Positions 19,600 through 62,410 of a stretch of 64,000 nt of DNA are shown piece by piece. The notes under the pieces are model-generated. The model saw only the letters and a list, made by a program, of their open reading frames with translations. It was not told the DNA's origin and made no database searches. Location: positions 63,555 through 127,554 of the forward strand of contig NZ_NESS01000007.1 of the NCBI RefSeq assembly GCF_002128425.1, read 5' to 3'. The stretch is from Gottfriedia acidiceleris (GTDB taxonomy: Bacteria; Bacillota; Bacilli; Bacillales; Bacillaceae_G). The first letter of the stretch is position 1. Each line of letters starts with the position of its first letter. The position numbers and the translations under genes are program-made.

Positions 19600-19860
19600 A
19601 AAAAATCGAGGCCCCCCTATTAAATAATAGGGACGACCTCGATCGCGTTACCACCCTAGTTATAAGAAGAAATACTATTACTAGTAAAAATCCTTATCAC
19701 TCGAATCTGTAACGTAGATTTACGTTCTTCCCTTCGTTAGATCAACTAACTACGAAAAGAAAACTCCCGAAATGTAATTCATTTGATTGTGTAGACGAGT
19801 TTTCACCAACCACTCGCTCTCTGGACTACTTCCAACCAAACTACTGCTTTTTCGTTCACT
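19600..19860 (-). promoter_or_regulatory. T-box riboswitch, Tyr specifier, controls GNAT-nhaC
   Basis: Read on the minus strand. Stem I carries AGAGAGCGAGTGG and the specifier segment GAAT-TAC-ATTT; TAC (complement of 19774-19776) is a tyrosine codon. The T-box bulge region AGGGTGGTAACGCG is at 19644-19657, and the terminator ATCGAGG...CCTCGAT plus six T is at 19600-19643. The bulge-flanking bases read AACG where ACCG is usual. The leader begins about 12 bp after the tyrS stop codon. Confidence 0.92.
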
Positions 19861-19872
19861 GTTTGTTCAATA

Positions 19873-21425
<1,553 letters not shown>

Positions 21426-21445
21426 TATTAAAATGTTATGAAACA

Positions 21446-48292: not shown

Positions 48293-48590
48293 GCAAAAAA
48301 CCTCGCCCCTATCTATAAAAGATAAGGACGAGGTTTGAGACCACGTGGTACCACCTTAGTTCACAAAGTATTTACATACATTTGTCTTTGCAAGTACGAA
48401 AAGCATAAAATGCTTCTATACTGTGACTTTGATAACAAGTGCCAACTCTTGTCGTAGCCTACTAATATAAAATATACGTTCAGTACAAAGCTCCGAGGCC
48501 ATTGTTCAAATGAGTATTCATGCTTCTTTTCAGCTACCGAAGCTCTCTGTAAAAAATAACATCATTCTACTTTTCCTCTTCATTGCCTTT
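48293..48590 (-). promoter_or_regulatory. T-box riboswitch, Met specifier, controls metS
   Basis: On the minus strand stem I begins with ACAGAGAGCTTCGG. The specifier segment is AACA-ATG-GCCTCGGAGC, ATG being the complement of 48500-48502. The T-box AAGGTGGTACCACG is at 48344-48357 and the terminator CCTCGTCC...GGGGCGAGG plus T run at 48293-48334. The remaining gap to 48801 is AT-rich with no gene. Confidence 0.93.
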
Positions 48591-48801
48591 ATTCAAATGT
48601 TAAAAAGATTTTATACAAAAGTGAAAGAAAAGTCAAACTATTACAAAACAATATAGTTCTTTATTATATAGTATAAGTTGCAAAATGAAAGTTAATTTAT
48701 TTTCAAAGCTTTTTTGTCGAAATAAAAAGGAATAAAAGTGAAGGGATTCTCTGGAATAAAGTTAAATATAATCAATTATCAAAGCTTTAGGAGGAGAAAA
48801 A

Positions 48802-60440: not shown

Positions 60441-61769
60441 TTAATGGATTTGTTTTTTACCATTAAATAAAGAACATATAATTAATACAATTAACATCCC
60501 TAAACAAACAAAAATACTTAATCTATTCTCTTCACTAAAAGCAAATGCTATACAACTTACACCTAATGCAATCGCCGTAAATGAAGTTATATATGGAAAT
60601 CCCCAAACTTTGTAATGTGGTAGCTGAGTGTAAGTTTTACGTAGCTTTAATTGTGCTAAACAAATGCTAATCCATACTAATGATACTGTAAACCCAGGAA
60701 TCGCCATTAAATATCCAAATACTCGATCAGGAGAAAAGTATGCAACAAATGTACCCGCAATTAAAATAATTGCACTAACAATAACTGTGTAAATCGGTAC
60801 CCCATTTTTAGAAATTTTTGCAAAAACCTTTGGAGCCTCTCCTTCAGTAGCTAATGAATACATCATACGCGTACAGCCGTAAATTCCTGAATTTGCAGCA
60901 GATAATACTGCAGTGATTAAAACAAAGTTCATAATATGAGCTGAACCTTGAAAACCTACTGTTGATAAAACTTGAACAAATGGACTTTCTTGATTACCAA
61001 TTTCATTCCAAGGAATTAATCCGCAAATAATCAAAATCGGAAGTGTGTAGAATAAAACGATTCTCCAAATAACACCTTTTATAACTTTTGGTATTACTTT
61101 TTCTGCATCTTTTGTTTCTGTTAATGTTAATCCAATTAGTTCTGAACCACCGTAAGAAAAAATGACAATTAATAAAGCAGAAAATACTCCTGACCAACCA
61201 TGTGGGAAAAATCCCTTGTGCTGAACATAATTTTGTACATAACCACTATGATCACTTGGAATAATTCCAAATAAAATTCCAGCACCTAATGCAATAAATA
61301 AAACAATCATTGTAATTTTAATTCCAGCAAACCAGAATTCTATTTCGCCATATCGTTTCACATTCATAAAATTAACAATCACAATAAAAATTGCACTAAT
61401 AAAACTTAAAGACCATAAAGACATTGAAGGAAACCAATATTGTAGAAAACTACCTGCTGCAATCACCTCAATAACACAAACAACTAACCACATAAAACAG
61501 TACAACCAACCAATTACAAAAGAAACTCTTGTACCAAACGCTTTACGAATAAATCCTTTCATATTCAAACCTGGGAACGCAATTGCCATTTCCGCGATCG
61601 CACTCATTACAACAAGAAGTAATAATCCTGCAAACAAATAAGAAAAAATAACTGCTGGCCCTGCAATTGATACAGTTTCTGAAGTCCCTTTAAATATTCC
61701 AGTGCCAATTGCTCCACCGAGTGCCATGAAACGGATATGTCTTGGCAATAAATTTTTTTGTAATTCCAT
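60441..61769 (-). CDS. APC-family amino acid permease, probable Phe/Tyr uptake
   Basis: 442 aa, 12 membrane segments. APC superfamily, amino acid transporter subgroup: RHIRFMALGGAIGTGIFKG (11-29) is the first-helix signature with the unwound GxG, and FSYGGSELIGLTLTET (near 205-220) the sixth. AGAGGAG precedes ATG. Two T-boxes in series lie upstream, the first with a TTC (Phe) and the second with a TAC (Tyr) specifier, so an aromatic amino acid is the inferred substrate. Confidence 0.9.
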   Translation of the reverse strand: MELQKNLLPRHIRFMALGGAIGTGIFKGTSETVSIAGPAVIFSYLFAGLLLLVVMSAIAEMAIAFPGLNMKGFIRKAFGTRVSFVIGWLYCFMWLVVCVIEVIAAGSFLQYWFPSMSLWSLSFISAIFIVIVNFMNVKRYGEIEFWFAGIKITMIVLFIALGAGILFGIIPSDHSGYVQNYVQHKGFFPHGWSGVFSALLIVIFSYGGSELIGLTLTETKDAEKVIPKVIKGVIWRIVLFYTLPILIICGLIPWNEIGNQESPFVQVLSTVGFQGSAHIMNFVLITAVLSAANSGIYGCTRMMYSLATEGEAPKVFAKISKNGVPIYTVIVSAIILIAGTFVAYFSPDRVFGYLMAIPGFTVSLVWISICLAQLKLRKTYTQLPHYKVWGFPYITSFTAIALGVSCIAFAFSEENRLSIFVCLGMLIVLIICSLFNGKKQIH

Positions 61770-61801
61770 ATTCTATCTCCTCTTTCCTACTTGTTTATTT
61801 A

Positions 61802-62048
61802 TAAAAAAAATCGCCCCTGCCACTAACGACAGGGACGATTTTCACCGTGGTACCACCCTAATTGCAGAATATAAATCTGCCACTTGTTTTATTTAACGAT
61901 CTATGACCGTCTTTTTCTAATAAATGTCGACCTTTATTTCGAAAAAGAAGCTCCAGGATTGTAATTCATGCTTGTTTTTGTACTGATTCGCACCTTCCAT
62001 CAGCTCTCTTAAACAGTGAAACAAACATTACTGTATTCCCTTCATTGC
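61802..62048 (-). promoter_or_regulatory. T-box riboswitch 2 of the permease, Tyr specifier
   Basis: On the minus strand AGAGAGCTGATGGAAGGTG marks stem I. The specifier is TAC in GAAT-TAC-AATCCTGGAGC (complement of 61961-61963). The T-box AGGGTGGTACCACG is at 61846-61859 and the terminator AATCGTCCCTGTCG...GGGGCGATT plus T run at 61803-61842. It is the T-box nearest the gene. Confidence 0.95.
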
Positions 62049-62074
62049 ATTTTCTATATTAAGTTTTAATATAA

Positions 62075-62335
62075 TAAAAAAGTCCCTACTGATAATATCA
62101 GTAGGGACGAATTATTCGCGGTACCACCCTAGTTGCAGAACTATTCTGCCTCTTAAAATTTGATAACGATCAAACTTGACCGTTTTTCCCTCAGTAAGAA
62201 TTAAACTTTACTTCGAAAAAAATAGCTCCAGGACCGAAATTCATCCTTATCTTTGTACTGATTTCCACCAACCATCAGCTCTCTATTACATTGAGATAAG
62301 TACTACTTAAATTCCCTTCATTGCTTAAAACGATA
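62075..62335 (-). promoter_or_regulatory. T-box riboswitch 1 of the permease, Phe specifier
   Basis: On the minus strand AGAGAGCTGATGGTTGGTG marks stem I. The specifier at the homologous position is TTC in GAAT-TTC-GGTCCTGGAGC (complement of 62236-62238), a phenylalanine codon. The T-box AGGGTGGTACCGCG is at 62117-62130, the terminator AGTCCCTACTGA/TCAGTAGGGACT plus T run at 62075-62108. It is transcribed before the Tyr T-box. Confidence 0.94.
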
Positions 62336-62380
62336 TTAAACTAACTTTAGTAACTTGTTTCTTTTTTTAATATGTTTTGT

Positions 62381-62410
62381 ATTATAGGGCTTTTTTAATA
62401 ATTCTGTCAA
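62381..62410 (-). promoter_or_regulatory. Sigma-A promoter of the tandem T-box permease unit
   Basis: On the minus strand TTGACA, 18-bp spacer, TATAAT: both hexamers perfect. It lies just upstream of the Phe T-box; no such promoter was seen between the two T-boxes. Confidence 0.88.

Follow-up and report, generated by a model that had tools for sequence, protein, structure and literature searches.

Tandem T-box leaders with Phe and Tyr specifiers ahead of a putative aromatic amino-acid permease gene in Gottfriedia

Two complete T-box riboswitches of different predicted specificity, a distal one with a phenylalanine specifier (UUC) and a proximal one with a tyrosine specifier (UAC), were found in series behind one promoter and ahead of a single permease gene in a 64,000-nucleotide stretch of DNA (the window) from the soil bacterium Gottfriedia acidiceleris. 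The proposed scheme, in which Phe and Tyr T-boxes act in series with a multiplicative output and the mixed pair arose from a Phe/Phe pair by point change, is considered quite probable as a whole. Tandem T-boxes and a suspected mixed pair are already known, and the most useful result here is an allelic series of such leaders within one genus.

Locus Layout and Promoter

All features of the locus lie on the minus strand, from 62410 to 60441, in the order promoter, distal T-box, 45-nt linker, proximal T-box, putative ribosome-binding site and permease. The promoter TTGACA-18-TATAAT (62381..62410, with TTGACA at 62410-62405 and TATAAT at 62386-62381) agreed with the consensus at 12 of 12 bases, and its hexamers and 18-nt spacing were the same in all 16 leaders compared, which came from 12 Gottfriedia genomes and 4 outgroups. 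The distal, or upstream, leader (62100..62330) carries its UUC specifier at 62236..62238, a UGGU bulge complementary to tRNA ACCA at 62123..62126 and an intrinsic terminator of 12 pairs followed by a U tract at 62082..62108, the last recognised by a terminator scan and by folding. The linker (62099-62055) is without an open reading frame or a conserved promoter. The proximal, or downstream, leader (61828..62054) has its UAC specifier at 61961..61963, a UGGU bulge, likewise complementary to tRNA ACCA, at 61852..61855 and an intrinsic terminator at 61806..61843, a 16-pair hairpin including the A/U tract that was recognised by folding and was absent from the simple terminator scan. A probable ribosome-binding site, AGAGGAG (61777..61783), was assigned from sequence and conservation, its letters being kept in 10 of 12 Gottfriedia leaders (exceptions G008 and G001), and is followed by the permease gene (60441..61769; 442 amino acids, APC superfamily).

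T-Box Identity, Folding and Terminators

Both leaders gave full-length matches to the T-box model RF00230 on the minus strand, at 62330-62100 (143.1 bits, E 4.8e-33) and 62054-61828 (160.3 bits, E 1.7e-37), each above the gathering score of 93 and covering all 219 model positions (1-219). A chance structure was ruled out by these scores. The terminator stretches folded at −21.8 kcal/mol (distal) and −26.7 kcal/mol (proximal), with z values of −3.6 and −3.8, while the antiterminator stretches alone folded at −7.4 and −7.7 kcal/mol, not more stable than shuffled sequences (z about −0.2 each), as for a short weak hairpin. In both leaders antiterminator and terminator could each be formed and had letters in common, which makes them mutually exclusive, with the terminator far stronger. 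The minimum-free-energy fold of the whole distal leader was a long-range one and not the canonical T-box fold, and the assignment as T-boxes therefore relies on the covariance model. Compared with RF00230, both are full-length canonical transcriptional T-boxes with specifier, UGGN bulge, antiterminator and terminator; nothing structural differs, and the locus stands apart by combining two specificities ahead of a single gene. The sequence-only reading had described one promoter followed by two complete T-boxes, each with its own terminator, at 61770-62410; the covariance scores, the folding and the promoter match bore it out, and its coordinates were correct.

Further T-boxes were noticed in the window and beyond. 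Two more Tyr (UAC) T-boxes lie on the minus strand at 19626-19868 and 21196-21427, one preceding a GNAT gene and an NhaC-family transporter gene and the other tyrS (names by eye), and a T-box at 48321-48592, minus strand, lies upstream of a probable methionyl-tRNA synthetase gene and has the specifier region GAACAAUGGCC. A chorismate-mutase/DAHP-synthase-type gene carries tandem boxes that read UUC/UUC in one genome (G017, L179) and UAC/UAC in two others (G015 and G018; L178 and L181), the same Phe/Tyr toggle. Three consecutive Tyr T-boxes were found upstream of phenylalanine hydroxylase at L183 (G004:C18:855-1654). At a probable hisS (L015, G000:C44:22909-23136) the specifier loop GAAAGACAC allows either GAC or CAC to be read; for a hisS-aspS operon, a leader that senses both tRNA-His and tRNA-Asp has been suggested (PMC4342826).

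Specifiers, Reading Frame and Cognate tRNAs

The specifier loops are GAA-U-UUC-GG (distal) and GAA-U-UAC-AA (proximal). As the gap between the triplet and the helix amounts to two bases instead of one, the frame was put to the test on 50 boxes, namely the two of the window and 48 from orthologous or related permease leaders after removal of duplicates. The chosen frame gave UUC in 33 boxes, UAC in 17 and nothing else; the −1 frame gave UUU (26), UUA (17), AUU (5) and CUU (2), and the +1 frame UCG (19), UCA (14), ACA (14) and ACG (3). The base preceding the triplet was variable, as were those following it. The UUC/UAC frame thus holds, since all 50 boxes yield only these two triplets in it. The same local sequence was also found ahead of tyrS of the same genome (GAAUUACA; gene recognised by eye from its translation) and ahead of the phenylalanine hydroxylase gene. 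The homologous positions had been read from the sequence as TTC and then TAC, for Phe and Tyr; the covariance model, run on the minus strand, led to the same triplets in both specifier loops, with neither specifier displaced to another triplet, and the frame test upheld the assignment.

Genes for tRNA-Phe (anticodon GAA) and tRNA-Tyr (GTA), matching the two specifiers, were present among the 11 of 30 tRNA loci of the genome that were covered by the tRNA scan. The ACCA end was encoded in two of three Phe and two of two Tyr tRNA genes examined, the third tRNA-Phe gene having discriminator A without an encoded CCA. The UGGU bulge of both boxes agrees with discriminator A (ACCA ends) in tRNA-Phe and tRNA-Tyr, and the leaders would be expected to bind these tRNAs.

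The Permease and Its Leaders in Gottfriedia and Relatives

The permease open reading frame (61769-60441) is a member of PF00324 (E 1.1e-97). It matched 27 NCBIfam models, and no cut-off was passed among the 25 listed; the aromatic models NF007602 and NF007594 matched far below cut-off, with some other sub-cut-off models matching better, and the sole solved relative at E 1e-20 or better was a lysine permease. The putative substrate therefore rests on the T-boxes, which suggest that the permease imports aromatic amino acids.

The 13 Gottfriedia genomes of the data set were searched and an orthologue at 88% identity or more was found in 12, those at 96-97% including G. luciferensis and G. acidiceleris; the thirteenth genome (G004) had only homologues at 54-55% and none closer. 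Two boxes above the gathering score preceded the gene in 12 of 12 orthologues. The specifier pair was UUC/UAC in seven, UUC/UUC in three (G001, G007 and G010) and UAC/UAC in two (G002 and G008), so that the mixed pair recurs in related genomes, where the sequence-only reading had proposed to look for it. The mixed pair is not essential to the role of the gene, since 5 of the 12 orthologues are without it. In a wider set of 66 loci, of which 28 were scanned by covariance models and the other 38 by motif alone, T-boxes were found upstream of the permease in 20, comprising 14 tandem and 6 single arrangements (Neobacillus and relatives); one of the motif-only loci (L159) had a distant core match. 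Every box read in direct orthologues outside Gottfriedia was UUC.

Several individual leaders showed variant arrangements. Two orthologues, L121 and L122 (from Neobacillus niacini and a Bacillus sp.), have no T-box but retain TTGACA-18-TATAAT and a hairpin resembling a terminator about 110 bases upstream of the permease start, an arrangement that looks like loss of the sensor with retention of the terminator. In G004 (L092, C8:70512-74616) two permease paralogues adjoin, one with UUC/UUC and the other with UAC/UAC, a split and not a mixed leader. The proximal box of L081 (G008, UAC/UAC) has GGUGGUAACACGG as its T-box core and not GGUGGUACCACGG. Phenylalanine hydroxylase (PF00351) was found in 17 of 19 family genomes; its presence was ruled out as an explanation of the Tyr specifiers, since all 13 Gottfriedia genomes have it.

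Evolution of the Specifiers

Trees were built for 16 genomes, 12 Gottfriedia and 4 outgroups, the latter all UUC/UUC. The seven mixed genomes formed a clade with support of 95/94 on the tyrS tree and 45/86 on the joint tree, and the clade was absent from the permease tree. All three trees (permease, tyrS and joint) require at least three specifier changes in the proximal box and two in the distal box; for the proximal box, three gains are as parsimonious as one gain plus two reversions. When each alignment column was traced on the tyrS tree, positions 1 and 3 of the specifier were unchanged in both boxes across the 16 genomes, and position 2 changed twice (distal) and three times (proximal), only between U and A. 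The leaders are AT-rich, and among their fast columns (at least two changes) variation was confined to A and T in 8 of 51 for the distal box and in 8 of 69 for the proximal box; the argument from a U/A toggle is weakened, because such variation is not rare.

In a tree of 56 boxes, computed without the specifier columns, the distal boxes of Gottfriedia form one lineage and the proximal boxes another. Both lineages contain UAC boxes nested among UUC boxes, and the permease UAC boxes did not group with those of tyrS, nhaC, aroA and phhA from the genome of the window. Several deep branches of this tree are weak, its bootstrap had not settled, and the long-branched tyrS, nhaC, aroA and pheS boxes are placed unsurely. 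One UUC box (L114) fell inside the UAC boxes on a weak branch; its genome lies outside on the tyrS tree. By these trees, the tandem pair predates the mixed state, and the latter most likely arose by point change at specifier position 2 and not by box swapping. Over both boxes together, the retargeting would comprise at least five point-change events. A one-base specifier change in Bacillus subtilis tyrS was reported to switch its amino-acid specificity (PMC2494555) and represents the laboratory counterpart of the natural Gottfriedia series.

Predicted Response of the Paired Leaders

One transcript start would feed two independent T-box attenuators arranged in series. Uncharged tRNA-Phe, by pairing with UUC and with the UGGU bulge of the distal leader, would open the distal terminator; uncharged tRNA-Tyr, by pairing with UAC and with the bulge of the proximal leader, would next open the proximal one. 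Readthrough would then be the product of two probabilities, a shortage of one amino acid alone lifting a single factor, and full permease expression would therefore need both tRNAs to be uncharged; with one of them uncharged, the output would equal the residual readthrough of the other stage. Such a multiplicative, AND-like response of terminators in series is judged the likeliest from the arrangement of the leaders. The gate may be soft, as leaky terminators would let transcripts pass and limitation for one amino acid would also raise expression above the floor: the response would be AND-like in absolute output, yet single limitation can lift expression off the floor. The origin of the mixed pair would be an older pair of two Phe boxes, in which one base of the proximal specifier changed from U to A.

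Tyr-box control was also found in the same genome at tyrS, at the operon with the NhaC-family transporter, at the chorismate-mutase/DAHP-synthase-type gene and at phenylalanine hydroxylase (names by eye, except for the hydroxylase, by PF00351). An importer of broad aromatic range, fully open at no time but when both pools run low, would make a sensible reserve.

Alternative Explanations

The default frame rule of TBDB (PMC7778990) would, given the two-base gap found here, put each triplet one base downstream, and a shifted reading such as UCG and ACA would make the specifiers Ser and Thr. Such a reading is already close to refuted: the 50-box frame test and the local sequence shared with tyrS and the phenylalanine hydroxylase gene speak against it, and the third base C fits the strong NNC preference of Phe and Tyr specifiers, given as 0.99 for each (PMC7778990). 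Nearly as improbable is a second promoter between the leaders, by which the Tyr box would act alone and control would become OR-like or Tyr-dominated. A looser scan did return a single 9/12 promoter-like match in this interval (TTATCA-16-TATATT, 62095-62068), and this was all that was found of the separate promoter that the sequence-only reading had envisaged as evidence against itself. Promoter-like matches in the region were at chance level, however (10 observed against 12.3 expected in shuffles), the first hexamer overlaps the distal terminator hairpin and the hexamer pair was not conserved among the 11 other Gottfriedia leaders. The strict promoter pattern matched a single time in each of the 16 leaders, always upstream of the distal box. 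The origin of the Tyr specifier has a rival of its own, in which the proximal box was swapped in by recombination with the Tyr box of tyrS, nhaC, aroA or phhA. The genome offers at least five other Tyr boxes as donors, but with specifier columns excluded the UAC proximal boxes grouped with the UUC proximal boxes of their own gene, away from the other Tyr boxes; several deep branches are weak, and the swap is nevertheless given hardly any credence.

Drift is the more serious competitor, though it too is regarded as unlikely. The proximal specifier would be drifting, the pair would be a redundant duplicate that mainly sharpens one response, and the difference between UUC and UAC would be of little consequence, since aromatic shortages usually coincide. 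This agrees with the variation of specifier states within one genus, with the single box at 6 of the 20 loci with boxes (Neobacillus and relatives), with the A/T-only fast columns and with the description of double T-boxes as recent duplicates that may sharpen the response (PMC9413887). Against it, all inferred changes stay between Phe and Tyr and none leads to a codon for Ser, Cys, Leu, Ile or Val, each likewise within reach of a single base change. Five outcomes confined to U and A would arise by chance at (1/3)^5, or about 0.004, a rough figure that assumes equal bases and ignores composition; when the A/T-only share of fast columns is used, the equally rough figure is about 0.16 × 0.12 = 0.02. 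The mixed state has moreover been kept through seven genomes that form a clade on the tyrS tree. Phe and Tyr T-boxes acting in series thus remain the preferred explanation of the mixed leader. The stronger proposal, that the genus holds a natural allelic series (Phe/Phe, Phe/Tyr and Tyr/Tyr) in which recurrent position-2 changes reset the tRNA sensed at each stage, the mixed form being a tRNA-Phe AND tRNA-Tyr gate and selection tuning the logic of the leader base by base, could equally well be right or wrong.

Relation to Known Systems

Judged by sequence, the leader has the features of a tandem gate: two complete switches, no intervening open reading frame or conserved promoter, and different specifiers. 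The statement of the sequence-only reading that tandem T-boxes are known agrees with the literature (PMC12452182, PMC9413887). The leaders of trp, ilv-leu, thrS and hom1 (PMC12452182) have in common with the present one two complete T-boxes and two terminators on one gene, and for the branched-chain operons it was reasoned that passage through both platforms takes two uncharged tRNAs (PMC12452182). The main text of that paper is without the word "specifier" and suggests that hom1 responds to low threonine and methionine, whereas the Phe-then-Tyr order of Gottfriedia was read directly. For Clostridioides difficile hom, two T-boxes "presumably recognizing two different tRNAs" were described (PMC11477304), so that a suspected mixed pair was already in print; it differs in gene, amino acids and lineage, and the passage contains neither a specifier reading nor an evolutionary series (PMC11477304).

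The AND gate of a T-box(Leu) and a ppGpp riboswitch (PMC9481103) likewise combines two ON-type sensors with separate expression platforms in one leader and a predicted AND logic; its second input is ppGpp, whereas both inputs in Gottfriedia would be tRNAs. Table 2 of the same paper contains no T-box/T-box pair, and the portion of its Table 1 considered here likewise has no tandem T-boxes; such pairs may be untabulated (PMC9481103). Retargeting between Phe and Tyr in evolution is shared with the Phe T-box of an NSS transporter in the Bacillus cereus group, which is related to the tyrS T-box (PMC2494555); that case involves a duplicated box at another gene, while the Gottfriedia series would consist of in-place point changes inside a tandem pair.

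The further claim that mixed pairs are uncommon was supported in part. None of 16 other tandem arrays outside the orthologous group was mixed, in what is a small convenience sample drawn unsystematically from the best matches of 19 genomes, with several arrays orthologous to one another (phenylalanine hydroxylase in at least four genomes). The 16 comprise two from the genome of the window (phenylalanine hydroxylase, UAC/UAC, and a probable trpE, UGG/UGG), two in G004, one each in G013 and G031, and ten more. An exact UUC-then-UAC pattern in the same fold was present in 4 of 397 genomes of the order, all Gottfriedia; the pattern missed the mixed genomes G009 and G012 (sensitivity 4 of 6 on known cases) and sees only very similar boxes, so that it is no measure of general rarity. 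The opposite order, UAC then UUC, matched none of 199 genomes, which is likewise no measure of general rarity. A Phe/Tyr tandem T-box was not found in the open-licence literature searched; an earlier listing is possible in the comparative surveys Vitreschak 2008 and Gutierrez-Preciado 2009.

Significance

The occurrence of very similar natural leaders of one gene with three specifier combinations makes it possible to test whether T-boxes in series multiply, and the same natural series to test whether the specifier alone needs to be changed for retargeting. The locus also advises caution, as one T-box is insufficient for assigning one amino acid to a transporter. The Gottfriedia leaders offer a natural test bed for the combination of signals by stacked RNA switches.
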